The notes beneath the pieces are model-generated. The model was not told where the DNA came from and did no database searches. It was given only the letters and a program-made list of their open reading frames with translations. The position numbers and the translations under genes are program-made. 64,000 nt of DNA from Mesostigma viride. Lineage: Eukaryota > Streptophyta > Mesostigmatophyceae > Mesostigmatales > Mesostigmataceae. Below are positions 405-62,559 of the stretch, piece after piece (the first letter of the stretch is position 1; each line of letters begins with the position of its first letter). The stretch is taken from contig RPFO01000299.1 of assembly GCA_009746045.1 (NCBI GenBank), positions 2,369,850-2,433,849 of the forward strand, read 5' to 3'.

Positions 405-504
405 TGCTATGCCATGCAGAGACATGCTCTCTGTCGAGAAGCCATGTCCTAGCTCTTGTGAAGCCATGATGATCTTCCCCCACATAACATACTCCCCCTA
501 TTAT

Positions 505-2458
505 CAACATCACTCCGTTGGGAGTACTTAGATGTAGCACATAGCCCTGAGAAGGGGCATATGGCTTTTAATACATTCTAGGCTACTTCATGCAAGGGTG
601 GGAATGTAAGCTACCCCTGCTCTAGGTGCACCAGGGCACCCGCACCCTCATGGTCTATCACGCTATGCCCGGGTAAGGGGGGAGCATGCCTGTGAGGGGG
701 AAGATCATCATGGCTAGACAAAAACTAGAGCGTGGCATCTCAGCAGAGAGCAGCTCTCTGCATGGGCACAGCATTACTAAATAAAACTAGGCAGCGTCTG
801 GAGTGTGGCTCATCATAGGCACACATGTACATGACTAAAAAGGCTAGGCCTAAGCTGGTATAGTGCCTGTAGTAGGCGGGCATGTACAAGGCCACTGTCT
901 AACTATTCTACACTACTGCTGTATTCCCCTAGGCTGGGGCTGGAGTTGCTGGGGCCGCGGTGGTCGAGGGGGTCGCTTGCCAGGGCTTGTGGCCGACGTA
1001 GATGGCCGCCCCCTTCCAGTACACCGGCTGGCCCGCCTTGGTCTGCCGGAGCTGGGTGTAGGTCGGCCATAGCTCCCGTCGCCGTTGTTGCTGTGCCAGG
1101 GTCAAGTCGTCGTCCACGGTGAAGGGAGTATTCGCGAGCCGCTTGCGGCGTCTGAGAAACGAAATCTTGTCCGCTGGGCTATCAAAGATGAGAAGAAGCG
1201 GAGGCGCCCCTGCCTTACCCCGCGCGCGGGGGAGGCGGTGGGCGGTCAGCTTGATCTCACCAAGAAGGCCCATGCGTGCAAGGATTTTGCTCTCAAACGC
1301 GCGTGCAAGCTTCTCGGAATTCTCACCTTCTTCCATGTCCAAGTTCTTGAGTATGGCGTTGAGGCTGCGCTTGGCGAGCTCGGCCTCCTCGCGGAGGTCA
1401 AGCGTCTGCCGCTGGAGCTGGGCTGCGACGGCGGAGGTGGTGGAGGTGGTATGTTGCTTAAGCATGTCCGCCCAGGTCGTGAGGGAGGAGCATCGCCGGC
1501 CGGGCCAGCCGAGGCTGGCTTGGCGGCAATGTCCTTCACTGCCTGGGCGGTGAGGCCTGCCGTGTTCTGCAAGACCTCGATAGCGATTGCATTATCCTTG
1601 AGGCGCTGGTCGATGTCGCGGAGCTGGGCGGTGATGGAGTCGGTGGAGGCGGAGGGGGGGGGGGGTGGAGGCGAGGAGGGTGGCGGTGGCGGTGGGGATG
1701 GTGGGAAGCTCAGCAGCCAGCGTGCCACCTATTGCCGCCACATCTGCGGCAAGAGGGGTCACGTGCTGCTCGAAAGCTTCCTTGAGGAGGGTGCGGATGG
1801 TGGCTTCGGTGGGGAAGGTGGAGGGGGGCGGTTTGGGAGCCCAGATCTCGGCTTCGGAGCGTCCAACAAGGGAGCAGAGGGCGAAGCGTTGGAGCTTGGG
1901 GCGACTCATGCGGGGAAGGACGGGGAGAGTCTCGGCGGGGTCGACAAGCTGGCCAAGACCAGGCCCGCGGCCGCGGTTGTGGGACGTGAGGTACACGCAC
2001 AGGGCTAGAAGCGAGGCGTGATTGCCGTGAAACACGTCGTCCATGAAGCAACTGGGGCTGCGTTGCCAGAAGCCGGAGCGGTTGACGTCGAAGGAGGTCT
2101 CTTCCCAGGGCGGCTCAGCAGAGCGACTGCGCTTAGGATCAGGCGATGCAGATGGCGAGGTGAGCCCGGGAGGCTGGGCGAGCACCAGTGCACGACTAGT
2201 GTCACCGTTGCCATCTGGGCCGGTGGGCGAAGCTGCAGCCGAAGCTGCAGGCGTATTTTCATTGCCGAGCGCAGCCGCCAGGCTGCGTTGCGTCGAAAGG
2301 CGTTTGCTCATCGTATATTGCGTAATAGCGTCGGAAAATTATATCAGCATGTGCGTCGTAGAAAGACGCATCGATTGTGATATTCACGGCTAAATTCGGT
2401 GCTCAAACGTGAAAGTTATGAGCTCCGCCGTCAGCCATGGCTATCTCGTGGCTCGTGG
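505..2458 (-). mobile_element. H element copy Hb, near full length
   Basis: This is a minus-strand H copy. Its 5' end carries the CCACGAG repeats and the leader around GAGCTCATAACTTTCA; its 3' end has an intact hairpin (ACTCC-CAAC-GGAGT on the minus strand, near 512-526) with little tail. It is collinear with copy He over about 1.95 kb. Exact ends and a target-site duplication could not be fixed. It probably interrupts copy Hc. Confidence 0.8.
929..2311 (-). pseudogene. H ORF1 protein (L1 ORF1p-like), frameshifted, in copy Hb
   Basis: The protein starts MSKRLSTQRSLAAALGNEN at 2311 and ends after the YVGHKPWQA block at 929. It falls in three frames: 2311 to about 1640, about 1640 to 1450, and 1465 to 929. 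The N-terminal ~240 residues are Ala/Pro-rich. A heptad-rich segment (DIDQRLKDNAIAIEVLQNT, then REEAELAKRSL) could form a coiled coil. The C-terminal half has the L1 ORF1p RRM and C-terminal-domain pattern: NAILKNL, AHRLPRARGK, FLRRRKRL, DDDLTLAQQQRRR, YWKGAAIYVG. Known L1 ORF1 proteins bind RNA and chaperone retrotransposition. The first break is at a 12-base G/C run near 1650. No reverse transcriptase follows. Confidence 0.8.
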
Positions 2459-2515
2459 CATCATCACCCTGCAGCCATCTGGGCTGGGGGGCTTTGCTCC
2501 CCCTTAGCTGGGCAT

Positions 2516-3081
2516 TAATTAATTAATTAATTAGGAACATAACTCCGTTGGGAGTATATGTAGCACATAGCCCTGAGAAGGGGCATATGAGCCTATAATA
2601 CATTCTAAGCTACTTCCTGCAAGGGTGGGAATGTAAACAACACTTGCTCTAGGTGCACCAGGGCACCCGCACCCTCACGGTCTATCACGCTATGCCCGGG
2701 TAAGGGGGGAGCATGCCTGTGAGGGGGAAGATCATCATGGCTATACAAGAGCTATGGCATGGCTTCTCAGCAGAGAGTGACTCCCTGCATGGGCACAACA
2801 TTACTAAATAAGGCTAGGCATCGTCTGGAGTGTGGCACATCATAGGCACACATGTACATGATTAAATAAAGCGCGGGGCTTAGCTAGGATAGTGCCTCTA
2901 GGAGGCGTACATGTACATGGCCACGGTCTATCTATTCTGCACTACTACTGCTGTATTCCCCTAAGCTGGGGCGTCTGGAGTCGCTGGGGCCGCGGGGGGG
3001 GGGGGGTCGCCTGCCAGGGCTTGTGGCCGACGTAGATGGCCGCCCCCTTCCAGTACACCGGCTGCCCCACCTTGGTCTGCC
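2516..3081 (-). mobile_element. H element copy Hd, 5'-truncated, with target-site duplication
   Basis: This 566-base minus-strand insertion holds the last part of ORF1 (YWKGAAIYVGHKPWQA region near 3015-3070) and the whole 3' UTR, intact hairpin and (AATT)n tail at 2516-2533. It is flanked by perfect 11-base copies of TAGCTGGGCAT at 2505-2515 and 3082-3092. The target is the 3' UTR of plus-strand copy Hc. 5' truncation, tail and duplication are the marks of target-primed reverse transcription. Confidence 0.9.
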
Positions 3082-3270
3082 TAGCTGGGCATAGTGTGAA
3101 GATTATGAGGGTGCAGGTGCCCTGGTGCACCTAGAGCAAGGGTCGCTTACATTCCCACCCTTGCAGGAAGTAGCCCAGAATGTATTAAAAGCCATATGCC
3201 CCTTCTCAGGGATATGTGCTACATGTACTCCCAACATAGTAATGTTTCTAATTAATTAATTAATTAATTA

Positions 3271-3570
3271 ATGGCTGTCTGCCACTCAGCAAGCGGGGGC
3301 TCACCAGAGAGCAGAACACGGTTGCAGATCACGCCAGCGCAGAAACTCGGCCTGCATCGTCAGGTTAGGGATCTTGAGCAGCTTGGCCGACAGGTGGTCA
3401 TCACCGACCGCCGCATCGTACCGCAAGCTCGAGCAAGCTGGCGCCATCCATCCATCGGGGTTAATGCTCCGTGACTCCCCAACGGGAGCACGAGTCTAAT
3501 TAATTAATTAAGGGCGCCATCCGATTCCTCTCAAGTGAAGGGGTGGACATCGTGCATCGCCATGCGCCCA
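3271..3570 (-). mobile_element. LINE-B reverse transcriptase fragment
   Basis: The stretch matches 20775-20990 of LINE-B base for base in many runs, for example GCCGTCTGCCACTCAGC, AGCAGGACACGGTTGCAGA, GACCGCCGCATCGTACCGCA and AAGTGAAGGGGTGGAC. Coding sense is the minus strand, and the piece corresponds to the N-terminal part of the RT domain. It is too short and diverged to be functional and is broken by the 63-base insertion at 3450-3512. Confidence 0.75.
3450..3512 (+). mobile_element. 63-base LINE-B2 3'-end insertion with target-site duplication
   Basis: The insert contains only TTAATGCTCC, the hairpin GTG-a-CTCCC-CAAC-GGGAG-CAC and an (AATT)n tail. Perfect 10-base copies of GGCGCCATCC flank it at 3440-3449 and 3513-3522. 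The uninterrupted counterpart in LINE-B reads through GGCGCCGTCCAATTCC at about 20950. The same 3' end, in longer form, occurs on the minus strand at 49033-49533. Confidence 0.85.
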
Positions 3571-13753: not shown

Positions 13754-13935
13754 ATGCGATCCTGACCGAGCCACGAGCCACGAGCCACGAGCCACGAGCC
13801 ACGAGGTAGCCATGGCTGTCGGAGCTCATAACTTTCATGTTTGAGCGCCGAATTCAGCTGTGAATATCACAATCGCTTCGTCTTTCTAAGACGCACATGC
13901 TGATATAATTTTCCGACGCTATTACGCAATATACG

Positions 13936-15314
13936 ATGAGCAAACGCCTCTCGACGCAACGCAGCCTGGCGGCTGCGCTCGGCAATGAAAATACGCCTGC
14001 AGCTTCGGCTGCAGCTTCGCCCACCGGCCCAGATGGCAACGGTGACACTAGTAGTGCACTGGTGCTCGCCCAGCCTCCCGGGCTCGCCTCGCCATCAGCC
14101 TCGCCTGAACCTAAGCGCAGTCGCTCTGCTGAGCCGCCCTGGGAAGAGCGCTCCTTTGACGTCAACAGCCCCGACTTCTGGCAGCGCAGCCCCGGTTGGA
14201 TTATGGAAGACTTTTATTACGGCAATCACGCCTCGCTTCTAGCCCTGTGCGTGTACCTCACGTCCCACAACCGTGGCCGCTGGCCTGGTGACGGCAGGCT
14301 TGTCGACCCCGCCGAGGCTCTCCCCATCATTCACCGCATGCCTCACCCCAAGCTTCAACGCTTCGCCCTCTGCTCCCTTGTTGGACGCTCCGAATCCGAG
14401 ATCTGGGCTCCCAAACCGCCCCCCTTCCCCTCCGAAGCCTCCATCCGCACCATCCTCAAGGAAGCTTTCGAGCAGCACGTGACCCCTCTTGCCGCAGATG
14501 TGGCGGCACTTGGCGGCACGCTGGCTGCTGAGCTCCCCACCATCCCCACCGCCACCGCCACCCTCCTCGCCTCCACCCCGCCCCCCCCTCCGCCTCCACC
14601 GACTCCATCACCGCCCAGCTCCGCGACATCGACCAGCGCCTCAAGGATAATGCAATCGCTATCGAGGTCTTGCAGAACACAGCCGGCCTCACCGCCCAGG
14701 CAGTGAAGGACATTGCCGCCAAGCCAGCCCCGGCTGGCCTGGCCGGCGATGCTCCTCCCATCACGACCTGGGCGGACATGCTTAAGCAACATACCACCTC
14801 CACCACCTCCGCCGTCGCAGCCCAGCTCCAGCGGCAGACGCTCGACCTCCGCGAGGAGGCCGAGCTCGCCAAGCGCAGCCTCAACGTCATTGTCAAGAAT
14901 CTCAAGATGGAGGAAGGTGAGAATTCCGAGAAGCTTGCGCGTGCTTTTGAGAGAGAAATCCTTGATCGCATGGGCCTTACTGGTGAGATCGAGCTGGCCG
15001 CCCACCGCCTTCCCCGCGCGCGGGGTAAGGCAGGGCCGCCCCCGCTCCTTCTCACCTTTAAGACCCCGGCGGACAAGATTTCTTTTCTCAGACGCCGCAA
15101 GCGGCTCGAGAAGACTCTCTTCACCCTTGACGACGACTTGACCCTGGCACAGCAACAACGGCGACGGGAGCTATGGCAGACCTACCTCCAGCTCCGGCAG
15201 ACCAAGGCGGGCCAGCCGGTGTACTGGAAGGGGGCGGCCATCTACGTCGGCCACAAGCCCTGGCAAGCGACCCCCTCGACCACCGCGGCCCCAGCAACTC
15301 CAGCCCCAGCCTAG
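13936..15314 (+). pseudogene. H ORF1 protein (L1 ORF1p-like), one frameshift at a poly-C tract
   Basis: The frame opens with MSKRLSTQRSLAAALGNEN at the ATG at 13936 and stays open to the C run at about 14577-14590; the rest of the protein continues in another frame to the stop at 15314, about 460 residues in all. Order: Ala/Pro-rich N-terminus; LWAPK-rich middle (SEIWAPKPPPF); coiled-coil-like DIDQRLKDNAIAIEVLQNT and LREEAELAKRSL; RRM-like NVIVKNLKMEEGENSEKLAR and AHRLPRARGK; C-terminal domain with SFLRRRKRLEKTLFTLDDDL, QQRRRELW and VYWKGAAIYVGHKPW. This is the layout of L1 ORF1 proteins (RNA-binding chaperones). Copy Hb breaks at the same tract, so the shift may be a shared mutation, slippage or programmed frameshifting. 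Confidence 0.85.
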
Positions 15315-15709
15315 GGGAATACAGCAGTAGTGTAGAATAGTTAGACAGTGGCCTTGTACATGCCCGCCTAATACAAGCACTATACCAGCTGAGGCCTAGC
15401 CTTTTTAGTCATGTACATGTGTGCCTATGATGTGCCACACTCCAGACGATGCCTAGCCTTATTTAGTAATGCTGTGCCCATGCAGGGAGTCACTCTCTGC
15501 TGAGAAGCCATGCCATAGCTCTTGAATAGCCATGATGATCTTCCCCCTCACAGGCATGCTCCCCCCTTACCCGGGCATAGCGTGATAGACCATGAGGGTG
15601 CGGGTGCCCTGGTGCACCTAGAGCAAGTGTTGTTTACATTCCCACCCTTGCAGGAAGTAGCTTAGAATGTATTATAGGCTCATATGCCCCTTCTCAGGGC
15701 TATGTGCTA

Positions 15710-15732
15710 CATATACTCCCAACGGAGTTATG
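15710..15732 (+). promoter_or_regulatory. 3'-terminal RNA hairpin of the H element
   Basis: The sequence folds as CATA-(bulged T)-ACTCC-[CAAC]-GGAGT-TATG, about 25 bases before the end. LINE-B (19729-19749, minus) and LINE-B2 (3471-3493; 49090-49115 minus) have the same shape with compensating base changes. Such hairpins are known to be the RT recognition signal in stringent LINEs; here that role is inferred. Confidence 0.75.
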
Positions 15733-15970
15733 TTCCTAATTAATTAATTAATGCGATCCTGCTGAGGAACAGGCTCTCGCATAACTCGGTGACAGGAAGT
15801 CACCATGACACCCGATACAGACCCAACCTGACATTGCAATCACGGATGGTGCAATGCAGGCTTTCCCCCAGCATAACCCCTGGAATGGGACACCTTTTTT
15901 CGCTATCTAACTCTTTATTGCTCCTGTTGTCCTCGTTGTCATACCTGCAGATTACCGCCTCCTACACCGG

Positions 15971-19707: not shown

Positions 19708-19728
19708 AAAAAAAAATTAAATTATAAC

Positions 19729-19749
19729 ATGCCTCCGTGGGGAGGTCAT
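19729..19749 (-). promoter_or_regulatory. 3'-terminal RNA hairpin of LINE-B
   Basis: On the minus strand: ATG, bulged A, CCTCC, loop CCAC, GGAGG, CAT, then GTT and an A/T tail. Stem pairs differ from those of H and LINE-B2 but stay paired, and the bulge and loop shape are kept. The role in RT recognition is inferred from other LINEs with structured 3' ends. Confidence 0.7.
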
Positions 19750-19832
19750 GTAGCACATATTTCATGATGGATGGGGTGGAGGAAGCCGCGTGATCGAACT
19801 ATCCTAACTCTATCTAGAAAAGCCTAACTACA

Positions 19833-22483
19833 CTACTCATCAAAACGCCTCCTCCGCTTGGGGGGAGGTGGCTTGCCCACAGGGTCGGGCGTGTGTGCCT
19901 TGACAATCTTCTTCCACCGCTCCTTGTCCTGCATGGCAGTCCAAAGACGGGAGAGAGAGTGGATGCGGTACTCAAACTGGGCTGGGACCACTAGGTCGTC
20001 CAGCAACATCTGGGTATAGGTCATGGCATGTTTCCCTACCTTTTTAGGAATGTTCTTGGGGCCAGGCCAGGTCAAAATGTGCCGCCCCGGTTGGCCGAGC
20101 CGCTGGGGACCGGCCAGACCAAGGGCGGTGTCGACCTGGCTGGTGCGAGCAAGATGTCCTACAAATGCTATCCTACGCTGTCTAATCTCGTCCGAAATAC
20201 GCGGCATACCGTGATACAAAGACTCTAAGGACCGACGCTGAGAAAACCCGACATTCAGGACCTGTCGGAGCATCCGGGTTACCGTGCCGTCTAGCTTGGC
20301 TGCCAGTGTTGCCGTGAGTGTCCATGCCTCGGCGCCATACGTGAGCACCGTGAGGACGAGGACCTTGAAGAGCATGCGCTTGCGGTGCTCGTCCAGGCCC
20401 TTGGAGCGCCAGTAGGCCGATGCGGGTGTCCACATCGTCGGCAGTGTCCGGAAGCCAACTCCCCAACAGCTTGAAGCGGTCGCGGAGTGGGACCTCCGTC
20501 CCGTCTAGCAGGCGCGGCAGCGGTGAAATGAGGACCAGCGGCAAACTGTCAGGGGGAAGGCGACGCACCTCCTCCATCAACCGGCGCGCGACAAACACAG
20601 CCATGACAGTGTTACGACCACTACGGAAACCCATCTGAGACTCACCCAGGTGTGGGTCCAGCGCGGCGCGGAGCCTGTGCAGCATCATGCGCATGAAGAC
20701 CTTCAGCGCGGCGCTCTGGAGGCAGACACCCCGGTAGTTACCGGGGTCAGCAGCAGAGCCCTTCTTGTACAGCATGACGCGGATGGCCGTCTGCCACTCA
20801 GCAGGCGGAGGCTCGTCAGAGAGCAGGACACGGTTGCAGAACGCCAGCAGAAGATCCCTAACCGCCAGATCAGGGGTCTTCAGCAGCTCAGCAGAAAGGT
20901 GGTCGGCCCCGACCGCCGCATCGTACCGCAGGCGAGCAAGGGCGCCGTCCAATTCCTCCAAAGTGAAGGGGTGGACGACGTCGTTGGTGGCAAGGCAGCC
21001 CTCCTTCAAGGCGGGGACTTGGTAGTCCGCGGCCGAGGAGGGGGGCGCTGGCGGCGGCGGGGGTCCGGCGACCCCGAGGCGGGCGGCCGTCTCGGGGTGA
21101 AGCGGCGGGGGGGGGCGCGAGCCCCACCGGTCAAGGAAACATTGTGGGCCAACCAGCGGTCAAGGCTTACCGGCGCCGTGCCGTCCCCCGTGTGCTCCAC
21201 CGGGGTGCGCTGCCGCCGGCCGCCGAGCCGGTCGAGGTGGTACCACATGTCCTTGCCCTGGTTGCGAGCCTGGCAGGCCTTGGCATCCGCGATGCACTGG
21301 GCCGCCTCCGCGTCCTGAGCATGCTCGTAGGCCTCCACAAGGGCGGCCTTGAGCAATGGTTTCTGCAGCGGTCCCGGTTACGCTTGAGGCGGTGCCGGGC
21401 GGCCAAGACCTTGGGGTCCTGGCGGTAGAGCGGGCCGGGGCGGCGGCGGGGCATGACCGGCAGGTGCCGGGCCGCCAGCAACGGGGCACGGGCCGCAAAG
21501 CCCGCAAAAATGGCTGCGTTGGGGGCACCCTTGTCCAGCTCGTCGACGTCCGCCCGGGCGTCCAGTGCCGACAGGTACTTCCGTCGGCACCAGTTCCGCT
21601 CGTGCTCGGCGTCCGTCCAGTCCTCAGGATCTCCCTTGACCGGACGTAGAGCAGACCAGTCAGGGCGGACCACTGGGGCGCGGCGCGCGGGGACGTGGAA
21701 CCGGAGCCGAAGGGTCGCGCGCACCAACCGGTGGTCAGAGCACACCGTGGGCGTGTCAAACACTCGGGTGTCCAGAACCGAGGTACACCTGGGCTGCCGT
21801 ACCACCACGTAGTCCAGACAGGCCTGACGGCCGTTAGGGCCACGAAAAGTGACCAAGTCCTGGGAGGGACGTTGGAAGTGGCAGTTGACAGCAACCATCC
21901 CGCTATCCCGCAAAAAGGCAGAAAACAGGGGAGTGTTGTCATTAGCAGCAGTGTCAGCAGGCGCAAAGCGACTGCCAGCAGTACCCACGGGGAGCGTGGC
22001 ATTGGCGTCTAGCAGCATAACCAAAAAGTGGCGGGCCGGGGTGGCCCCCTCAAGGCTATGCAAGTCCTCGAAGAACTTCTGGCGTTCCAACGCAGGTAGA
22101 CCACTATGGGGTGCGTAGCCCACCCCCACCGTGAGGTGGTGTTTAGACCGCCCCTCGACGGAGGTGAAGTGTGCTACCATAAGGCGTGGCGTTAGAAACT
22201 TAAGCGTGCTGAGGCTAGCAACTGCCAGCGGCGAACACAAAAGACCAACACCACCTTGGCCAGACGTACCGCTGCCAGCGAAGAAAAACCGCCAGCCACC
22301 CGCCAAGCGATCAGTGCTCACCATGCCAAGTGGCACCGTGCGGCGGTGTTCCTGGACGCCTAATATAGACACACGATGCTCAATGCAGAATGCGACTAGC
22401 TCCTCTACCCGGCAGCTATGGTCGTCATCTAGCAATGTGCGGGTGTTAAAAGTGGCAAGGGCCAAGGATGCCTGCTGGCCCAC
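19833..22483 (-). pseudogene. LINE-B ORF2: APE endonuclease, RT (core deleted), C-terminal domain
   Basis: It starts near 22483 (MGQQASLALATFNTRTLL). APE motifs: FNTRTL, GVQEHRR, LLDANATL, CLDYVVV and CSDHRLV. After frame changes near 21350 and 21050, the RT starts with AAVGADHLSAELLK, MLYKKGSAADPGNYRG and SQMGFRSGRNTVMAV. Then, near 20540, sequence that should hold motifs A to E (including YxDD) is absent and the frame resumes at LLDGTEVPLRDRFKLLG. The C-terminal domain follows: YWRSKGLDEHRKRM, LTYGAEAWTL, RRIAFVGHLARTSQVDTALG. It ends KPPPPKRRRRFDE at 19833. The deletion and frameshifts make this copy inactive. Confidence 0.85.
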
Positions 22484-22853
22484 CAGGGGAGGACGACGAT
22501 GGGTGATGGGGGTGGGTGCGGCGGGGGTGGAGGTGGGGGTGAAACGGAGGGGGGAAGGGAAGCGGTAGAAATAGTGCTTTTCATCGCATTTATTTTGTCC
22601 TGCAAGCGTAGGATGCGAGCCTGCCGCCTGCTCTGGGTATTCGGGGATGCTTGCGCAACGCAGAGGCGTAGGAAATCTAGCATGCGTTGGGTGTTGCTAA
22701 TCTTGCTGCTGAGAGCTGTCGTTCTGGCCCGAGATACCGGCACCACCATGTGTCTCAGTCGACTGTTAGGTCGATGCATGGTAGTGGAACGGGACTATTT
22801 AGAGGCTGTCCCCGAAGCCTGTTAGCCGCGAGCCGACGAGGAAGGTTGTCTAC

Positions 22854-24029
22854 CTACTGTCTACCAACAGAGGCAGCACCCTTCTGGCTAGACGCCTGAC
22901 GAGACTCCGCTCCGGGGGTGTTAAGCGGAACACCTGTAATCCTGTGCCCATCAAAGAATGCTGCAAAGGAGCCATCCTGAAGCAGACGCAACTTAATGCG
23001 CTTACCCTTGGTCTCTTGCTTCTTGGTCTCCTGGACGATGGTGCTGTTCCACACCGCGCTCCTCGCCTTCAGTTGAGCCGTCGTGTAGTCCTCGTCGAGG
23101 CTGAAGTCATCGCGTTGGAGCAGACGACGTGCTCCCAGCACGAGGCGTTTGTCGTGCATGGAGGCCATGGTGACGACGACCAGGCCCAGAGGGCCTGGCA
23201 GCCGAATGGCACGTTCAATGGCAACACGGTTCTGGAGCTGCAGCTTCCCCAGAAACGCTGGGCCGCGCAGCTCCTCGGCAAGTGAGTGTGCTGTCTCCTG
23301 TGCTGCCGCGCCTTTCTGGAAGCCTTTGATTACCATATTGCGTTGGCGTTGCTGCACTGCATTCTGGGTGACCGCAGCGGTAGCTGCAGACTTGGCCGCC
23401 TGTTGAACAATGGTGGTCAATTGCTTGCCGGTGACATCGGCAAACGTGGTAGTTTTGGCAGGGGCTGCCATGGCTTTCTTCAGCTCCAGCATCGTCTCCT
23501 TCAGGACCTTAATGTCGCCCTGCACGGTCGTAAAAGACTGTGCGAGGTCCTGCAGCGGCACGGTAGTGTCGGTCGCGGGGGCTGGCCTGGCGATGGGTGT
23601 CGCCGGCAGCTCGACAAGTTCAGAGCAGCACGAAATAAGACATGCAAGACGGCAATCCTTGGGCTCCAAAGCATCAATGGTATCCGAAGGAGCGTCCATA
23701 ACCTGGCCGGTGCGAGGGTGGCGAATCGGGGCGTTGTGTTCGTAGCGGAGCTGCAGCACGCGTCGCACCTCGGCGTCGCTGAAGCCAAGGAAGGCAGCGA
23801 TGTCGTCCAGGCTCAAACGTGCGACTGGCATGTAGAATGAGGAAGAAATGGAGTCCGGCAAGGAGGTTTCAACCGCTATCGGAGTTGCTTCCGAAGTCGC
23901 TGCCGAAGTCTTGGTGCGCTTGTTAGCGGCTTTCTTGGCCGCGGCAATGTCGGTGGCGATTTTGTTTGCAGCAAGTTTGTCCTCGAGAGACTCGGCAGCA
24001 AGAACTGAAGACGATGCGGGGGCCTCCAT
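22854..24029 (-). CDS. LINE-B ORF1 protein (L1 ORF1p-like), intact frame
   Basis: The frame is open for about 391 residues from an ATG in a good context (GTAGCCATGG). The N-terminal ~75 residues are Ala/Lys-rich (AAAKKAANKRTKT). A heptad-like segment, VQGDIKVLKETMLELKKAM, sits near residue 190. An RRM-like start, QRNMVIKGFQ, is near 245, followed by AIERAIRLPGPLGLVVV, KRLVLGARRLLQRDDFSLDEDYTTAQLK and a final FAAFFDGHRITGVPLNT, the pattern of the L1 ORF1p C-terminal domain. Expected role: trimeric RNA-binding chaperone of the LINE particle. It is the best candidate relative of the H protein. It lies 370 bases before ORF2. The start base could be off by one. Confidence 0.8.
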   Translation of the reverse strand: MEAPASSSVLAAESLEDKLAANKIATDIAAAKKAANKRTKTSAATSEATPIAVETSLPDSISSSFYMPVARLSLDDIAAFLGFSDAEVRRVLQLRYEHNAPIRHPRTGQVMDAPSDTIDALEPKDCRLACLISCCSELVELPATPIARPAPATDTTVPLQDLAQSFTTVQGDIKVLKETMLELKKAMAAPAKTTTFADVTGKQLTTIVQQAAKSAATAAVTQNAVQQRQRNMVIKGFQKGAAAQETAHSLAEELRGPAFLGKLQLQNRVAIERAIRLPGPLGLVVVTMASMHDKRLVLGARRLLQRDDFSLDEDYTTAQLKARSAVWNSTIVQETKKQETKGKRIKLRLLQDGSFAAFFDGHRITGVPLNTPGAESRQASSQKGAASVGRQ

Positions 24030-24330
24030 GGCTACGTTTAATAGCACCTAGACGATGGCAGGGGGCGCAGGCGCACGGCTCACGTGCGTGGTGCCGCCAT
24101 AACGTGCAGAAAAATAGCGATATCTGCTGGGCAGGCCGCCGGCGATAACTTTCGAAATCCGGGGCGATGGCTGCCAAAAATTAGATCAGCGTGTTCGTCA
24201 TCAAAAAGCGAGTCTGTAGCAATTTACCCGACCAAATTTCATGCCCGGAATCAAAAGTTATGAGCATTCTCGGCATCCATAGCTCGGCGCACCGTAAACC
24301 GGGAATATTATGGGGGATGATCCCTCACTT

Positions 24331-45536: not shown

Positions 45537-46250
45537 AGGGGATTCTGGGGTGGTCCCACCAAGTCGGTTCGAGCAAGCTGCTGTCCTGACCATATGGTGT
45601 GGGCCCATTCGTTCCATGTGCATGCCCGGAGTACAAGTCTGTAGTGCACGACGAAGCGTACATTTTCCATGGGATTTAGTGACACAACTATTCCTGGACA
45701 CATGGCATTCCATGGTGTGAGGACTCAAGATCAGCTGTTTGAGGTGGAAGGCGTGACGATCGCGGAAGCCGCATGTCTATCTGTAGTCCAAGAATGGGAT
45801 AATCACAATAACTGTACATATCAGAAAATCAGAAAATCAGAATATATTCTTATGCTGCATGCCACTCTCACCTCCGTAATCTATTCTTCTCAATGAATAC
45901 ATATTCATTGAGAATGATAAACAGGTGGAAAAGGGCTAAAGTCCTGAAAAAAGTCAGAAAAGTCGCGAGCGCGCGGGGGCTGAGATTAGTTAAGAAGTAA
46001 GTTGATACTACATATTAAATAAGAGGCATGCCTCTATCAAGATATGTTATTGGAGGCGAGTTTCTTTTGGCGTAAATGTGTACTAGTGTTGTACGACAAG
46101 ATGTCAAGGGTGACGGAAAGTACTCTGAAGTCGCGGAAAAGTCGTAAAATTCATGAGTCTCGGTTCTTTACGCCGTTGAGCACTGGCATGCCAGTCAGTC
46201 AAGCGCAAACACTCGTGACATTCGTTAATTGCAGCCGGACATTGCTGAAC
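45537..46250. other. 3' flank of the large gene, with a hairpin at 45887-45914
   Basis: TTCTCAATGAAT-ACAT-ATTCATTGAGAA is a perfect 12-base inverted repeat 350 bases after the stop. It could mark a transcript end, which is only a guess. The rest has no supported gene. The last ten bases, ATTGCTGAAC (46241-46250), are the left target-site duplication of copy Hf. Confidence 0.5.
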
Positions 46251-48764
46251 CTCCGCCTCCACCGACTCCATCACCGCCCAGCTCCGCGACATCGACCAGC
46301 GTCTTAAGGATAACGCCATCGCTATCGAGGTTCTGCAGAACACCGCAGGCCTCACCGCCCAGGCGGTGAAGGACATTGCCGCCAAGCCAGCCCCGGCTGG
46401 CCTGGTCGGCGATGCTCCTCCCATCACCACCTGGGCGGACATGCTTAACCCTTAGTCCGTTAACCCCCCGACCTGTCGGGGGGTTTGACTAACGGTCGAA
46501 TTTCGCGCCGCGCCGAGAGCGCCGCGCCACTTGTGACGGATGTCAGTGGTCCAGTGGGTCCGGGAACACTTAGGGACAAAGGTGATGCATAGGTTTGGGG
46601 GTAATATTCGCCATAGCCTGGTAATTACAACGTGCATTGAGAATGTATCACGTGACTTTGGCGGGAAATTTTCGCTCGTGCGCGCGTAATGAGATATGGC
46701 TGCCAACGTGCCGCTGTTACGAAATGTTTGCGTCTCACGGCTTGAAACGGTTCAGAATGTTGCTCAGAATGACGATGCATGATTTTCGTAGGTCAGGCAC
46801 GGCCAGATTTATAGGGTTGGGAAAATACAGGTAGGAAAATATAACTTTCCTGGTCGTCAGTTCCAGATGAGTCATAGCTTATCATAGGTCGATTTCCTCC
46901 CTATGGCCGGGCAAATCTGCGCCAGCCCGGGCATCCAGTTTGGGTATGGGACGTCAGCTGCAGCGTTTGCTGAGAATGCGGACTAGTTTAGTAGCCATCT
47001 TTGCACGGAACATCGACCTGGTAGTCATGGCGGATCATGAAGTATGCGGCTATGGCGGCCTTTGCATGTAGAGCATCAGTATGTGTGAGATATGAGGGTC
47101 CCGGCCAGCGGAATCCGGGTAGGGCATGAACGAGCCAGGTACGACAACGTATTTGCGTGTTGTTTGCAGCGGAATACGTATCCCATGCATTATAAATGAC
47201 GATTGTATCCATGCATATTTCAGCAAGTTCCATGCCTGTTGTAAAGAGTGGTATTAGCCCTGAAAGTGCCCAGTTTTTGGCATTTCTTTGGAGTATACCA
47301 CTCCGTCAGTGCAGGTAGGCAACGTGTTTGTATTCCAGCACTTTTGGCAGCCTTTGATAGCTTGTTATAATGCATTATTGTGTTGCATGTCATAGATAGC
47401 TGTTTACACGCGCGTAACCCACACACATGTATGAGCACGTTATATAGGGGTAATGGGTTATCCGGGTGGTCTGACCCAAGGAAACCACCATTGGACTATC
47501 CAACTAAGTTGTCCAATGTTGTTATTGAGATTCCCTGCCCTCCCTGGGAAGTTAGGGTGGGGTAGACTTTTCCTTGGGGAAAAAAGATCGTCTTTTGGCC
47601 AACTTTGACTGGAGCTATCATCCAAATGCTTTGATAAAGCCAAGGTATTATTGCATATTCTGAAAGCCCTTGAAGTGTAGATACTCCTAGAATCTTGGTT
47701 GGGGGTATTTGGAGTTGTGGCCTGTGCGTTATGATTTTTTTCATTTTCAGGGGTATGAAAGTGCCAAAAATGGGTCAGCGGACTATGGGTTAAGCAACAC
47801 ACCACCTCCACCACCTCCGCCGTCGCAGCCCAGCTCCAACGGCAGACGCTTGACCTCCGCGAGGAGGCCGAGCTCGCCAAGCGCAGCCTAAACGTCATTG
47901 TCAAGAACCTCAAGATGGAGGAAGGTGAGAATTCCGAGAAGCTTGCGCGTGCTTTTGAGAAAGAAATCCTTGATCGCATGGGCCTTACTGGTGAGATCGA
48001 CCTGGTCGCCCACCGCCTTCCCCGCGCGCGGGGTAAGGCAGGGGCGCCCCCACTCCTTCTCACCTTTAAGACCCCGGCGGACAAGATTTCTTTTCTCAGA
48101 CGCCGCAAGCGGCTCGAGAAGACTCTCTTCACCCTTGACGACGACTTGACCCTGGCGCAGCAACAACGGCGACGGGAGCTATGGCCGACCTACCTCCAGC
48201 TCCGGCAGACCAAGGCGGGCCAGCCGGTGTACTGGAAGGGGGCGGCCATCTACGTCGGCCACAAGCCCTGGCAGGCGACCCCCGCGGCCCCAGCGACTCC
48301 AGACGCCCCAGCTTAGGGGAATACAGCAGTAGTAGTGTAGCATAGATAGACCGTGGCCATGTACATGTACGCCTCCTAGAGGCACTATCCCAGCTAAGCC
48401 ATGCGCTTTATTTAATCATGTACATGTGTGCCTATGATGAGCCACACTCCAGATGATGCCTAGCTTTATTTAGTTGTGTTGTGCCCATGCAGGGAGTAAC
48501 TCTCTGCTGAGACGCCATGCCCTAGCTTTTGTATAGCTATGCTGATCTTCCCCCCCATGACAGGCTCCCCCTTCGCTGGGCATAGTAGCTTGAAGATCAT
48601 GGGGATGCAAGTGCCCTGGTGCACCTAGAGCAAGGGTCCTTTACATCCCCACCCTTCCAGGAAGTAGCTTAGGATGTATGATAGGCCATATCCCACCTCT
48701 CAAGGGCTATGTGCTACATATACTCCCAACGGAGTTATGTTACAATTCAATTCAATTCAATTCA
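46251..48764 (+). mobile_element. H element copy Hf, 5'-truncated, split by a piggyBac-like element
   Basis: Target-site duplications ATTGCTGAAC lie at 46241-46250 and 48765-48774. The copy starts within ORF1 at the CTCCGCCTCCACCGACTCC segment, is interrupted at 46449-47789, and resumes to the ORF1 stop at 48316, the 3' UTR, hairpin (ATA-T-ACTCC-CAAC-GGAGT) and (AATTC)n tail. The ORF1 pieces are 46251-46448 and 47794-48316; joined, they match copy He closely, so the element was probably young when hit. Confidence 0.9.
46449..47789. mobile_element. piggyBac-like non-autonomous DNA transposon, 1341 bases
   Basis: TTAA flanks both sides (46445-46448 and 47790-47793); copy He has a single TTAA at the same place in ORF1, so excision would be exact. 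The ends are inverted repeats: CCCTTAGTCCGTTAACCC on the left and, on the opposite strand, CCCATAGTCCGCTGACCC on the right (15 of 18 bases alike). The left end has a subterminal palindrome, AACCCCCCGAC-CT-GTCGGGGGGTT. TTAA targets and CCC ends are the signature of piggyBac. No transposase is recognisable; the internal ORFs (81 and 72 residues) show no DDE motif. Confidence 0.85.
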
Positions 48765-50435: not shown

Positions 50436-50455
50436 AATAACAGTGTGCCAGCAAA

Positions 50456-52525
50456 CCCGACTCTCCAACCTACTAACCTGGCGGTGACATGGGTCCCGCC
50501 AGGAGGATACCACCTTTTGCATAACTGCCCTATCGGTCGGACAGCCGAAGGGAGGTTATTGGAAGTCAAAACCTTTCTATACGACGAATCACAACAACTG
50601 GGCAAACTTACTGGTGTACAACAGGTGGCCAACCGCTGGGCTGGCGTACACCGCCTCAGCCTCCGGGGCAAGGTCCTCGTCACGAACCAGCTGCTGTTCT
50701 CCAAGCTGCTGTACTTCGGTCAGGCCCACCCACCGGATGAACACACCGTGTCTCTTATTCAACGACTGGGGCATAACTTTGTTTGGAAAAAATCGAGCGA
50801 TCTCAGCCGCCAGGTACACGGATGGATCAGAGAGTCAATGTCTTTTATGCCGTGGCCTCTTGGAGGACTAGGCTTACACAATATGCAATGGCGTTTATGG
50901 TCGGTGTATGCCAAACAAGTTATCTCTGCCCACATTGGTGTCAACACACACCCTGGATGTCTTCTGGCACGTGTAACCCTCTCACGTCTTACTCATCACT
51001 CCAATGGTATTTCCTGGCACTCTGGAGCCGCACTGCTTACTGCTCGCCTCCCCTCCCCGAAGCTCACCAGAGGTCTTCCTTGGTACTGGGCTCGTATATG
51101 GCAAGGCTTTATGGCACTTAAACCCGACCGCCTATTATTTCCCACACTCCGTGAGGAAGTTGCACGCCAACCCCTATTCTTTAATGATATATACCTCAAC
51201 CCCCTTAATCGCCCCTTCGGATGCCTAAGTGGCCCTAACCCCTATATGAAGGCTTCATAACATCCCCCCACCCTGTAACCACTATTCTCCACCTGTATAT
51301 TCTCCACGGTGACTGCTACCGCCTCTTAACATATAACGAACTGGCTGCCTGGGTCCCCAATATGCCTACTTATGCTGCCTGGGCTGCGCTAGTACAAGCC
51401 ATACCCCCACGTTGGCACACACTCATGACTTCTCCCCGTGCCCCCTATAAAGCTGGTGAATGGTGCTGCTTTTGTCCATACAGCACGACCGCAACATGCT
51501 CGGGGAAGGTGATCGCAGAACTCCCCCTTGGAACCCTGCACGTTCAACTACTGGCGCCGCTGAGCGGCCACAATGGCTGTCTGGCTCAACTTACAACTGC
51601 AGTGGTGCTCCTCCCCACCCAGCTATGCCACCGGATTCGGGTTGTACCTTGGTCCCTAGAACAGTCATGTGTATACCAACCCAACCCCAACCTTCCAGAC
51701 GCTGCTATTATTTGGCTACATGTGGGATCAACTCGCCTGGACATGCTGTCATTGGATCCAGTGGAATTAATTGGCTGGGTGCTAAATCAGGGTGACAGCA
51801 GAATTGTAAAAGGCCTTTACGAGTACACGGCAGAGTGGGGCTACACAATGCTCCGGCATAAAAACCATCAATTCCACCCCGGACGGACACGCTGGGGTGC
51901 TACTGAGTGGCCTGGCCACACCTGGGTCCGCAACATCACCCTCGCCGCTGACCACCCGCTGATTGATCGCCGCGCGACCGACGTACAACACCTCTTGATG
52001 CACCGATCCATCGGGGTCGGGGAGATCCTCCACCGGCGATTTCACCACCCTGCTACTTGTCTATGTACCCACCCCACTGAAACTGTGGAACACCGATTTT
52101 TATGGTGTAACCTCCAGGGAGTTTGGACCTGGTTGATTGGTTTATGGGCAGCCTGGACATCTGAGCCTATCATACCGGTGTCTACCCGCTCAATTATCTT
52201 TGGCATCACTGGCACCCCTGGCCTTGAGCTCACCTTTTCACAACAAGCGTGGATATGGCTCCGCACATGCATGTTATATACAATCTGGACGGTGCGAAAC
52301 GATGTGGTGTTCAATAGGCGCACAGTTTTCGACAAAGCTGGGGTTCTCTCACGCTTCATTTACCTATGGAACTCCGGCATGCGACGCTACTGGATGGTTG
52401 CAAATGAACAAAACAAAATCTGGGACCCTGGCGCGGACCAGGATAAGCCCAGCCCACTTGAGATCTTTCATGACCTCATGGGCAAAAACAGGATCTTTAC
52501 CCACATGCCCAATGACAACCCATGA
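50456..52525 (+). pseudogene. LINE-A ORF2 C-terminal half, copy 2
   Basis: The frame is open from 50456 to about 51244, where a 2-base insertion (CCTATATGAAGG against CCTATGAAGG in copy 1) shifts it; it then runs to 52525. It contains the region after the RT palm and the Cys/His tail CLCTHPTETVEHRFLWC. Copy 1 has a 7-base duplication and a 33-base insert that this copy lacks, so the two copies complement each other as sources for the ancestral sequence. It ends MPNDNP, 13 residues before the copy 1 stop. Confidence 0.85.
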
Positions 52526-52648
52526 GAAGTCCAGTGGCTTCCGTGGTCTAGTAAGGCTCCGTTTTAGCCACTGACATCTTGATACCCTAGGTTTAGCAGG
52601 GATTAATTACTGGCTATATTTGGAATAAACGTACACCTATTTACCTGG
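50456..52648 (+). mobile_element. LINE-A copy 2, 5'-truncated, 20-base target-site duplication
   Basis: AATAACAGTGTGCCAGCAAA is present at 50436-50455 and 52649-52668. The 2193-base copy begins within ORF2 just downstream of the YADD region and ends TTTACCTGG with no tail. It is over 95% alike to 24660-26900 by eye. The absence of a poly-A or AT tail, with a long duplication, separates LINE-A from H and LINE-B. Confidence 0.93.
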
Positions 52649-52761
52649 AATAACAGTGTGCCAGCAAATGCCAGCTGTGCTACTGACGGTGTAATGCAAT
52701 ATAGCGACGACGAGGCCAGTGCGACTGTGCGACAGTGTGCAGCCATTTTCGATTTGCAGCC

Positions 52762-55261: not shown

Positions 55262-57163
55262 TCAGATGTGCGGAGATACTATGCGATCCAGCCGGTCCAC
55301 GACCTGTTTGTAGAGCTTGTGCCAAGGGGCAGCACCGAACAGATGTGGGTGACGTTGCAAAAAACATCGGACTTGACGGAGCATAATGGCTCGGTCATAG
55401 TCTTTGACCAATAAACGCTGCAAGAGTTCAACAAGAGTCGTGATGAAATCAACACGATAAGAACAAAGACGGGAAAAACGATGTAACTGAGAAAGAACAA
55501 CACCATATTTTGCTGTGTGGGAAAGGAGACTGTGAATATCGGGGTAACGAATAAAAGGAATTTGCTGGTATTTAGGATCCTTGCGCTTATCATAGATAGC
55601 CGTACGCCAGCCCTTCTTGTTATGGGTAATGTTAAGATCGAGGTAATTGCAATGAGTATCCTCCGACGTGAGCTTTAATGTGAGGGACGCTTGCGGGTAG
55701 ATGCCAGGCAGACCAGCGGTGATATACAAATGGGTTGCGAAATCAGGGTTGTCGAAAGCGATGACATCATCAATGTATCGACATGTATGGATAAAACGCC
55801 TGATGAGAACATCATCGTTTGAGGCAATGAGATTCTCCATGAATGCAAGCTCATAAGTGTATAGATAGAGGTTTGCAAGGAGCCCGGCACAGTTAGTGCC
55901 CATAGGGATGCCGATAGCTTGTTGGTATACATTGCCCGCAAAACAGATGAAGGTGTTATCAACAAGATAAGAGATCCAATGGACAAGGTCAGCCTTCGTG
56001 ATAATATAATTATAACCATCCCGCACGATAGCACCTGCCGCGATCCCTGAGAGCCACGTTGCCGTGGGCTTGGTCTGAGAAACACGCACGTGCAGGTGGT
56101 TGCGCCCGTGAGGCCTACGTGCATACAGACGAGTAAGGAGGCTATCTAAACGAGCTTTCAAATCGTGCAAATCTAGTGTGGTATATAGAGTGGTGAAATC
56201 ATAGGTGGCTATGGGCATAGGTATACGTTTCTCTGCTGCTGTCTTAGAACGGCTAAGGGCGGCAAGGCGTAGGCGTACTTGGGCTGAGTCTATGACGATC
56301 CAACTACCAGCGCATTCATACCCGGCATTCGACAGCACCTCCACCCATAATGCATTGGCTTCGGGGAGAAGAGCATTCAAAGCATGGCAGATGAGTTTCG
56401 AGAGAGGCATCAGTGGGGCTGAATGCGACGCAGCAATGGTGCGCAAAGCAACAGGAGTTTTGTGCAGCTTAAGAGTGAGATACAGATATGGGAACGTAGT
56501 GGTGGTGGCGCGTCGCTGCCGCTTAAGGAATGCCCGAGCAAAAATGTTTTGGCTGTGCAGAAAAGCCCGATGAGCAGCGGTGATACTGGCGGTGGACTGT
56601 GCACGCTGAACATAGGTAGGGCTGGACGCCAACTCGTGTTGCAAAGTAGCAAGGTAGTGCTTCTTGCATATGAAAGCAAAGTTGTTGGCACTCTTGTCAA
56701 CACACGTGATGATAAAGTCCTGCTTGAAGTGGTCAAGAAGTGCTTTATCTGTGGTGTTGAGCCAGGTGGTGCGGTGGACCTGCTGGAGACGGTAATCAAG
56801 CCTGGTGAGACGTGCATTGCATTCGTGAATGACGGCGCGAAACCACGGTTCCATGGCAAGGGGAGCAAGCTGTAGGTCCGTGCTCATGGCATTGCAAAAT
56901 TTGCGCAGTGATGTGGAGAGCAGTGCATTCACCTCTTTGGCACACGTGCGCTGGACCCACGGCCGAAACTTGGTGCCTTTGGCAAAAAGGTCTACAAGCG
57001 TGTGGCTCGGCAGGATGCTGAGGTCAGCGGTCATGACGTGCTGTGAGGTGGGATCAAGGTACTTGAAATACCGTTGTTGTTGGCAGGGGCAGGGCCCTGC
57101 CAAGATGGTGGCCAGCTCGGTGGGCGTTGTATCGCGGCTGACCTTCCCGTTGCTGAAAACCAT
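55262..57163 (-). CDS. Penelope-like reverse transcriptase, open frame
   Basis: The frame is open for 633 residues from ATG 57163 (MVFSNGKVSRD); the frame upstream is closed by a TAA. Order: N-terminal CPCQQQRYFKYLDP and HVMTADLSILPSHTLVDLFA; VDKSANNFAFICKKHY; LTLKLHKTP (fingers); motif A, TYDFTTLYTTL; motif B, QQAIGIPMGTNCAGLLANLY; motif C, CRYIDDVIAF; then YLDLNITHNKKGW, AIYDKRKDPKY and KYGVVLSQLHRFSRLC. IDD and GIPMGTNC are marks of Penelope-like RTs. No GIY-YIG endonuclease was found on either side; related algal elements carry it at the N-terminus, so this copy may be N-truncated. The catalytic residues look intact. It lies between direct repeats at 53783 and 57203. Confidence 0.85.
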   Translation of the reverse strand: MVFSNGKVSRDTTPTELATILAGPCPCQQQRYFKYLDPTSQHVMTADLSILPSHTLVDLFAKGTKFRPWVQRTCAKEVNALLSTSLRKFCNAMSTDLQLAPLAMEPWFRAVIHECNARLTRLDYRLQQVHRTTWLNTTDKALLDHFKQDFIITCVDKSANNFAFICKKHYLATLQHELASSPTYVQRAQSTASITAAHRAFLHSQNIFARAFLKRQRRATTTTFPYLYLTLKLHKTPVALRTIAASHSAPLMPLSKLICHALNALLPEANALWVEVLSNAGYECAGSWIVIDSAQVRLRLAALSRSKTAAEKRIPMPIATYDFTTLYTTLDLHDLKARLDSLLTRLYARRPHGRNHLHVRVSQTKPTATWLSGIAAGAIVRDGYNYIITKADLVHWISYLVDNTFICFAGNVYQQAIGIPMGTNCAGLLANLYLYTYELAFMENLIASNDDVLIRRFIHTCRYIDDVIAFDNPDFATHLYITAGLPGIYPQASLTLKLTSEDTHCNYLDLNITHNKKGWRTAIYDKRKDPKYQQIPFIRYPDIHSLLSHTAKYGVVLSQLHRFSRLCSYRVDFITTLVELLQRLLVKDYDRAIMLRQVRCFLQRHPHLFGAAPWHKLYKQVVDRLDRIVSPHI

Positions 57164-57202
57164 TTGTCCCAAGGTGGATTATGTACAGACATGTTCTCTA
57201 CT

Positions 57203-57614: not shown

Positions 57615-58770
57615 GGCCGGCGGGGCCAGCATGAAGGGGTTGGCCGGGCGGCAATGTCCTTCACCACCTGAATGGGCGCGCAGTGAGGCCTGCGGTGTTT
57701 TGCAGGTGCACTCGATGGCAGTGGCGTTGTCCTAATTCAAGAAGCGCTGGTCGATGTCGAGGAGCTGGGCGGTAATGGCGTCGGTGGTGGTGCCTGGTGG
57801 CTTGGGAGGTGCAGCATGGAGGAGAGAAGGGTGGAGTTCAGCGGTGGAGGTCAGGTGGAGAGAAGGTAGGCTGCAATTAATGAAGCTCGGTGCCATGCAG
57901 CCAGAATGCGTCCCATGGCTGCCTAGCTGCCACATCGATGCAGCGGCAGCAGCGCGGGGGGTCACGTGCTGCTCAAAGGGAGCGGACGTCGGCTTTCAAT
58001 GGTCACGGGGTGGGGGGGTGGGGGGGGATGGGGGTGGGGGGGGTGGGGCATACAGACAGGGGGTTACGGACATACGGCGGTGGGAAGCCCAGAGCTCCTC
58101 GCCGGTGAGCTGGAGGACGGAGGGAGAGGAGGGCGCGCAGCTAGATCTGGAGACCTGTGAGCCGAGGGCGCCGGTTGTAATTATGCAAGTCGGCTGTTGT
58201 TCAAACGAAATGAGCCTCAGATGATCCCTCTGGGCTCACGGAGGCTCTGGTGGCGGAAGTACTCGCGTTTCGCATAGTGCAAGAAGCGAGGCCTCCGACC
58301 CATAGAATACGTGCGTCAGGAGTTCTCGGGGGGACCGACTGCCGAAAAAATCCAGGCTGGTTGATGTCAAAGTCGTGCTTATCCCAGCTCAGGTCTCTGG
58401 TTGCAGGGCGACTACATTTGGGCTCAGGATAATTATGGCGAGGCCGCAGGATCGACCTCGGAGCCAAGTAAACCACTAAGGTTTGATTATACCTAGTCAG
58501 TACCGCTGACGCCTTCGCGCGAGGCCAGGGGGCGTTACTAGCTGCAGATACATGTATGTAGTTTCAGGGCTCATGGCGCCATGGGTCAAGGTGCGTTTGC
58601 TCACCATAATACCTCACGCATGATAATTGCATGAGAGAATATATCAGCGTGTGCGTCTTACTTAATTAGAAAGATGAAGCCGGATATTGTGATATAGTCG
58701 CGGCAAAATTTGCAGAGCCCAAACGTGAAAGCTCAGGGCGCGCCGCCGTCCGGTCAGCCATGGCTATCTT
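57615..58770 (-). mobile_element. H element copy Hg, decayed and 3'-deleted
   Basis: The minus strand matches H from the leader (CCATGGCTGACC, GAGCTTTCACGTTTG, ACGCACACGCTGATAT) through ORF1 pieces: KCSRPATRDLSWDKHDFDIN near 58380, and DAITAQLLDIDQRF near 57760. A G-rich stretch at 58010-58050 replaces part of the middle. The RRM/C-terminal domain, the 3' UTR and the hairpin are missing. It is the most diverged H copy here, so H activity spans a long time. Confidence 0.7.
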
Positions 58771-58913: not shown

Positions 58914-59611
58914 CTAATAGCCCTGCTGCACCGCAAAATCAGCCCGCGTACGGCGGAGCATGATGTCCGCCATGGCCCGAGTCAGCGCCACCGACAAGCG
59001 CTGACGCCAATATGACGTCCAGGTCCGCGCCGACCATGGGGCCCGCTGGCCCTCCAGGTCCAGCCGGTCCTCCCGGAGCCGGCAACACTCCTTGAAGAAG
59101 GCGGAGGTCAGGGGCCCCATGGCCCCAAACTCCTCCAGGACAAAGGGCACCACACGATGGTGCCCGACGTCGCCGTAGGCCAGGAGCTTGGCCCGCTCCG
59201 CCCGGTCCGCCGTGTAACCTGCCGTGAGGGAGGCCCCAGCCACGTGGCTAAGAGCCAAGGGCCGCGCCACCGAAACGTCAATAAGCAGATGCCGGCCACC
59301 CCCCTCAAAGTCCAGCACCACGATGTCAGGCCGGTGGTTGGGGAATAGAAGGCAGCGCCATCCGCATCCTCGGACCGGATGTTCGCGTGGGGGAAAACCG
59401 ACCGAATCATGGCGAGCACCACCGTCAGGAGGACAGTGTGCAAATACAAATACCAATTCTGATTCTGTTGGCCCCCCATGCAGGCAAGGTAGTGAGTCCC
59501 CGTGGGATCCAGCGGCTGCCCACAGCTACCACAAGGCCGCCCGGCCGGAACAAGAGGCTGCGGGGCAAATAGCTGGTGCCGGAGCGCCACCGAGTAGTGG
59601 CTGGGAGCCAA
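58914..59611 (-). pseudogene. LINE C-terminus with zinc finger and restriction-like endonuclease fold
   Basis: Two overlapping frames join near 59400. The first (59611 down) has CGSCGQPLDPTGTHYLAC, a C-x2-C-x9-H-x3-C finger. The second has HRPDIVVLDFEGGGRHLLID followed by VSVARPLA, the PD...D-x-V arrangement of PD-(D/E)XK nucleases, then AKLLAYGDVGHHRVVPFVLE and EEFGAMGPLTSAFFKECC. This architecture ends several algal and protist LINEs that lack, or carry in addition to, an APE domain. The RT is missing, so it is a 5'-truncated, frameshifted copy from a third LINE family. Confidence 0.7.
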
Positions 59612-61380: not shown

Positions 61381-61785
61381 TGGGTGGTCCCGAACTGGGA
61401 AGGGCGGACGGACTGCGGTGTTTCAGGACCACACAACGTGTCGTTATTTGTCTCCCGAGTTTTTCCTTTTTTCAGCCCCCTTCATCATAAGCTTCAGTCG
61501 ACTTGAATCCAGTTGCCATCTGTCGGCGGACGAATCGAAACTCGACCACTAGAGTTACGGTCGGCTTTGCGCCTTCTTTTGGGGGGGATGCGAAGCATCT
61601 CCCCCCCTTAAGCTTGTTCTAGCTGCATATGTACCAACAACTTGATAGGGTATAACCTGGTATAATGGGCCAAAGTCTAATTAATGGGCAGGACTGCATG
61701 GCATGATTGCCGACATCAGGCTTGTTCTGGATTCCTAGTGTAATTGGCAAAACGTACGGGCAGTACGGCACATTGCTGTTCTACA
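61381..61785. other. Spacer before the trinucleotide array
   Basis: No gene is seen. GGGGGGGATGCGAAGCATCTCCCCCCC near 61581-61607 is a nearly perfect palindrome that would form a strong hairpin. Confidence 0.45.
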
Positions 61786-62372
<587 letters not shown>

Positions 62373-62559
62373 GTCCCACGCCGCACATGGGCAGCAGTTG
62401 TTCTACTCTTGTACAGTACTGTAGCACTCGAAAGCTGTTGCCCCTGCCATTTCAGGCACGCGCGCAGTGTGTCATATCAGTCATTCAGGGTTGAGTTGAG
62501 TTGAGTTTATTCCCGCGCCGGTGGTCCGACAGGGTTATCTTTAAGTGATCTAGTGTCAT

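Follow-up and report, generated by a model that had tools for sequence, protein, structure and literature searches.

A coding non-LTR retrotransposon family without reverse transcriptase in the alga Mesostigma viride, and its likely LINE partner

HAL1 elements encode ORF1p only and have had multiple origins in mammals, according to the passages cited here (PMC5753468), and parts of two papers argue that they require ORF1p in cis and ORF2p in trans (PMC3627910, PMC5753468). HeT-A is described in the cited section of another paper as a Gag-encoding non-long-terminal-repeat (non-LTR) element believed to obtain its reverse transcriptase (RT) from a different element (PMC5537684). In Chlamydomonas, short interspersed elements (SINEs) share the tails of long interspersed elements (LINEs), for example SINEX-3_CR and L1-1_CR; green-algal LINEs mostly end in short repeats, and the L1 tail is poly(A), as stated in the cited parts of one paper (PMC3747384). 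Here we analyze the element H in a 64,000-nucleotide stretch of Mesostigma viride DNA (contig RPFO01000299.1, hereafter the window). H is a coding, RT-less non-LTR retrotransposon family. The original prediction, made from the window sequence, had described it as an ORF1-only element tied to a LINE named LINE-B, a description supported by copies with target-site duplications (TSDs), an L1-type ORF1, the absence of RT and the shared ends. We estimate a probability of roughly 77% that H works like HAL1, with its own ORF1 protein and the endonuclease (EN) and RT of LINE-B-type elements; we infer mobilization in trans, for which the prediction had used the word "parasitise". No algal ORF1-only LINE was found in the open-licence papers searched.

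Anatomy and copies of H

The copy He contains, from 5' to 3', a (CCACGAG)n repeat, a 5' leader, ORF1, a 3' untranslated region (UTR), a hairpin and a (TTAA)n-type tail:

13765-15750, forward strand: He, a complete non-LTR element of 1,986 bp
13754-13764, forward: left TSD ATGCGATCCTG, 11 bp
15751-15761, forward: right TSD ATGCGATCCTG, 11 bp
13768-13805, forward: 5' tandem repeat (CCACGAG)n, repeat number varying among copies
13808-13912, forward: 5' leader with homology to that of LINE-B (words and shuffle test)
13936-14706, forward: N-terminal frame of ORF1, 256 residues
14581-14588, forward: C-run in ORF1, in a stretch whose length varies among copies and decides whether ORF1 is one frame
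14532-15314, forward: C-terminal frame of ORF1 with coiled coil, RNA-recognition motif (RRM) and C-terminal domain (CTD), from the open stretch and a structure model
15315-15734, forward: 3' UTR, ~420 bp, in which no RT remnant was found
15709-15733, forward: 3' hairpin, common to LINE-B and covarying
15735-15750, forward: (TTAA)n-type tail

The duplication ATGCGATCCTG stands at both junctions, so He is the whole element, as predicted. For its coding capacity, the prediction of an L1-type ORF1 without RT stood in the absence of RT and in the L1-type plan; a single intact ORF1 in He did not, as 13936-14706 and 14532-15314 are different frames that meet near the C-run.

He-type copies were searched in the 440-Mb genome by scoring the best 40 of 7,461 candidates, and the counts are therefore lower bounds. 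At least 14 rows, He included, are 100% identical, besides one 58-bp piece, and at least 12 of these are nearly full length. We read 40 He-type loci; TSDs and targets were counted in 36 of them, leaving out L030, L037, L039 and L040, which have no complete 3' end. TSDs of at least 11 bp were found near the junctions of 16/36 copies and in 0/1,260 mismatched junction pairs. A looser search, run without a null, gave candidates of at least 8 bp in 31/36 (one, in L007, tail-like) and none in 5. Insertions lie in chromosome interiors with TSDs in both orientations, and six of the 40 copies are 5'-truncated with an intact 3' end. These TSDs, and truncated copies whose 3' ends are intact, mark H copies as products of an element that has these ends and moves by target-primed retrotransposition.

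The seven copies that had been predicted in the 64 kb correspond to seven mapped H-derived sets, to which an old remnant is added. The predicted two tail types were also recovered: TTAA (He, 2520-3088 and 3087-3262) and CAATT (10-170 and the copy ending at 48757).

500-2459, reverse strand: H copy, 93% identical to He in the window comparison
2520-3088, reverse: 3' part of an H copy, TTAA tail
3087-3262, forward: 3' end of an H copy, TTAA tail
10-170, forward: 3' end of an H copy, CAATT tail
404-498, forward: H 3' UTR fragment, 80% identical
46250-48757 (46250-46448 and 47778-48757), forward: H copy truncated at its 5' end, with a CAATT tail and, as read by eye, the TSD TTGCTGAAC; an insertion at 46449-47777 interrupts it
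within 57616-58731, reverse: old H remnant, two matched pieces, ~70% identical

The interruption at 46449-47777 is a 1.33-kb insertion flanked by TTAA, with inverted ends CCCTTAGTCCG.. and ..CGGACTATGGG read by eye; we take it to resemble piggyBac-type non-autonomous elements. Most of it recurs as a 97.6% copy in L031.

Forty He-type loci and six loci of a second family, H2, were read for RT and EN. No LINE-B-type RT/EN match falls within the element at any of the 46, H2 thus being RT-less as well, and no locus shows the arrangement named in advance as contrary to the prediction, with EN/RT lying between an H ORF1 and the same 3' UTR. LINE-B RT and EN gave a best E of 0.36 against He and H2, with no remnant. 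LINE-B-type RT/EN lies in the flanks of 25/46 loci; it is downstream on the same strand in three (L018, L026, L029), in each case past the 3' end of the element itself. The closest of these is L026, where the tail is followed by the TSD ATGGCCACTTC and the LINE-B EN match begins 126 bp past the element. With no EN/RT match within any of the 46 loci, we rejected H as the 5' piece of a longer LINE. Autonomous LINEs encode EN and RT, and H encodes neither; SINEs are non-coding, and H has open frames in H2 and in L009, L012 and L015.

Intact H copies encode a protein of 448-459 residues. Among the He-type copies, 3/41 (L009, L012, L015) have one open frame of 458-459 residues. The H2 protein is 62% identical to the He-type protein, its frames are long and open (62/63 scored loci have no internal stop), and the ratio of nonsynonymous to synonymous substitution rates (dN/dS) between the families is 0.43. 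An AF2 model of H ORF1 is of low confidence (mean pLDDT 53, RRM blocks mostly 65-80), and the top PDB matches in a fold search with this model are human L1 ORF1p. By this model, H ORF1 follows the coiled-coil/RRM/CTD plan of L1 ORF1p. H ORF1 matched no Pfam family and, by phmmer, no PDB sequence, so that the fold search alone gave matches; tblastn in plasmid records also gave none. Protein searches, each scoring the best 7,997 candidates by shared words, returned Mesostigma gene models only (51 for H ORF1 and 8 for LINE-B ORF1).

Identity among these proteins is unevenly distributed. The He-type ORF1 of L009 matches gene model P0001 at 98% in the coil, 100% in the RRM and 44% in residues 66-181; the corresponding values for P0002, P0003, P0007 and P0014 are 98-99%, 90-96% and 45-50%, and for H2 against He-type 69%, 63% and 44%. 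CTD identity is 95% in P0001-P0003 and 52% in P0007 and P0014, where gene-model errors may account for the low value. These alignments suggest that either residues 66-181 were exchanged between families as a module or the N-terminal part evolves very fast.

Features shared with LINE-B

The LINE-B copy in the window has the following parts:

19708-24296 (ends approximate), reverse strand: LINE-B copy, likely EN/RT donor lineage, with ~490 bp of RT missing compared with other copies
24177-24265, reverse: leader words matching H
22854-24047, reverse: ORF1, 397 residues
21167-22696, reverse: EN frame (PF03372, E 1.8e-6)
20182-21159, reverse: RT frame, partly deleted in this copy (PF00078, E 1.5e-5, under the curated cut-off)
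19727-19751, reverse: 3' hairpin

At least ten LINE-B copies beyond the window's own are ~100% identical over a span that begins no later than query base 12 and reaches 3775; judged by this identity, LINE-B is young as well. A full copy, L045, contains ORF1 and two overlapping frames, EN and RT, the latter open over 615 residues. The EN and RT frames of L045 overlap at 3342-3492, so ORF2 may have been divided by a change in run length, or may be translated by frameshifting. A protein search with the LINE-B RT gave 11 matches, none of which named a clade.

Both ends of He match LINE-B, as the original prediction had claimed. The leader word GCTCATAACTTT occurs without mismatch in LINE-B, in He and in a further H copy (3 matches when one mismatch is tolerated, chance mean 0.10). 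The word ACGCACATGCTGATATAATTTT is exact in two H copies and has 3 mismatches in LINE-B (chance mean 0.00), and it follows GCTCATAACTTT by 67 bases in He and LINE-B alike. Alignment of He and LINE-B scored 70 over the full leader (shuffle maximum 40) and 47 at the 3' end (shuffle maximum 37), each reached by 0/1000 dinucleotide shuffles, and chance was rejected as the source of the shared words. The unrelated LINE-A was at chance, its leader and 3' end scores being reached by 926 and 150 of 1000 shuffles. The ORF1 proteins are distant relatives (blastp of L009 against LINE-B, 25% over 254 columns, E 6e-7; hhalign probability merely 32%), in line with the claim that LINE-B carries the same type of ORF1.

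The 3' hairpins of H and LINE-B fold alike, with z of -1.89 for H alone and -3.63 for LINE-B. Two of the ten pairs change on both sides, and 99% of cells pair, with one cell unpaired. The covariation score and the 7 changed cells were each reached by 0/500 shuffles, although the count of two covarying pairs was reached by 311/500. Hairpin contexts were collected from 107 sequences (363 kb), a sample biased to H and LINE-B. The 94 distinct contexts comprise 56 of H, 24 of LINE-B type and 12 unclassified; the other 2, of LINE-B type with H directly upstream, we interpret as nested insertions. Tails are TTAA in 39, CAATT in 11 and other in 6 of the H contexts, and TTTAA in 20 and other in 4 of the 24 LINE-B-type contexts. 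In L070-L075, H2, H and LINE-B-type 3' ends are nested side by side; in L070, an H2 copy immediately precedes the hairpin of LINE-B2, an element resembling LINE-B.

H and LINE-B also share an insertion target. The 3' flank starts inside an H 3' UTR in 7/25 LINE-B copies (L045, L046, L048, L050, L056, L062, L067), 6/36 H copies (L003, L005, L006, L009, L016, L031) and 0/20 LINE-A copies, about 18 of the 20 being independent. The 25 LINE-B flanks come from 26 listed 3' ends, one on C335 being left out, and the LINE-A flanks are 20 of 40 scored rows. L006 was counted, with a match from flank base 14; not counted were L012, which lies in H ORF1, L023 and L034, which lie close to H 5' ends, and L057 of LINE-B, whose H match is 67 bases distant. 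Compared with the 2.5% H 3' UTR background in wider H-copy flanks, the excess gives p of 2e-6 for LINE-B and 3e-4 for H; with LINE-A as the reference, the excess is modest (0.01 and 0.06 by Fisher's test). L046 and L048 (LINE-B) and L009 (H) use the same insertion base, He 1935, and this points to one endonuclease making H and LINE-B insertions. LINE-A was rejected as the partner of H, having no common leader or 3' end and no insertions in H 3' UTRs (0/20).

LINE-A, with Exo_endo_phos and RVT_1 domains, is found at ~15.8-26.9 kb, where it is interrupted by LINE-B, and at ~50450-52661, as a 5'-truncated copy with TSD TAACAGTGTGCCAGCAAA. On the reverse strand, 55262-57178 is a 638-residue open frame without a Pfam match, presumably resembling a Penelope-type RT, and 58914-59525 is an open frame that gives the impression of a C-terminal portion from a different retroelement protein. 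A long trinucleotide repeat with several open frames covers 61781-62400.

Partner and origin of H

We propose that H mRNA would encode an ORF1 protein of L1 type, which would coat the RNA, and that the 3' hairpin, alike in sequence and structure to that of LINE-B-type LINEs, would recruit their EN and RT. This enzyme would nick targets, often older H 3' UTRs, and would copy H by target-primed reverse transcription into the full-length or 5'-truncated copies with TSDs whose anatomy is described above. H probably descends from a LINE-B-type ancestor that lost ORF2 long ago, and would have diversified on its own since.

H might instead be mobilized by another, unseen LINE with an even closer hairpin, LINE-B being merely a cousin of the partner. 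Two paired positions do differ between the hairpins (NTA or TGA before CTCC in H, GAC or GAT in LINE-B), the prevailing tails differ as well, and such a partner could lie among the 157 genome places with a restricted hairpin pattern (reversed control 0). However, all 80 concordantly classified contexts among the 94 of the biased sample belong to H or LINE-B/LINE-B2, and the two lineages have an insertion base in common within H 3' UTRs. We consider an unseen partner unlikely. Cooperation, as proposed for HeT-A and TART, with the H ORF1 protein also used by LINE-B ribonucleoproteins, would fit the open ORF1 of H2 and the common insertion targets, but LINE-B has a 397-residue ORF1 of its own, and we regard this as quite improbable. 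An origin of H as what remains of an autonomous LINE active until recently, its copies deletion derivatives and its ORF1 a passenger, is the least credible, for although every module but ORF2 is common to H and LINE-B and ORF1 is broken in many He-type copies, neither He nor H2 has an EN/RT remnant, the two families are deeply diverged with the same RT-less layout, and H2 frames are uninterrupted with the dN/dS given above.

Beyond the use of LINE-B-type EN and RT, a wider reading is possible but doubtful. H would be a long-lived, self-diversifying ORF1-only lineage and not a one-off deletion derivative. Its families would swap or quickly renew the N-terminal module (residues 66-181, 44-50%) over a coil of 98-99% and an RRM of 90-100% identity in several of them, and H would share an insertion hot spot in H 3' UTRs with LINE-B. 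If this is true, the parasite offers its helper a safe landing site, resulting in a nested two-element ecosystem.

Comparison with known systems

Like HAL1, H has an L1-type ORF1, in a low-confidence model, and no ORF2 (0/46 loci). It differs in its green algal host, in its (TTAA)n or (CAATT)n tails, in place of the poly(A) tail of HAL1, in the specific covarying 3' hairpin shared with its likely partner, and in the ORF1 of that partner, which is merely ~25% identical. Given the lack of a poly(A) tail and the unsettled clade of the partner, we treat HAL1 as a functional parallel of H and not as a family to which it demonstrably belongs. H resembles HeT-A (with TART/TAHRE) in its Gag-type protein and in an RT presumably supplied from elsewhere; chromosome ends carry HeT-A in oriented arrays, whereas H lies in the interior, with TSDs and in both orientations. 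As in SINE/LINE pairs, the non-autonomous H carries the 3' end of its LINE, but it encodes a protein of 448-459 residues and also shares the 5' leader.

What would be new is an algal half-LINE whose likely partner recognizes a specific 3' hairpin, together with ORF1 families that, in their alignments, seem alike in the C-terminal part and different in one N-terminal module. Why an RT-less element keeps ORF1 is a standing question, on which evidence has come mainly from mammalian HAL1 and Drosophila HeT-A. H adds an independent case from a streptophyte alga of an early-branching lineage, in which copies are young, frames are open, the likely partner has been named and the hairpin can be defined; therefore, the need for ORF1 in cis, the use of ORF2 in trans and the recognition of the hairpin can be tested separately.
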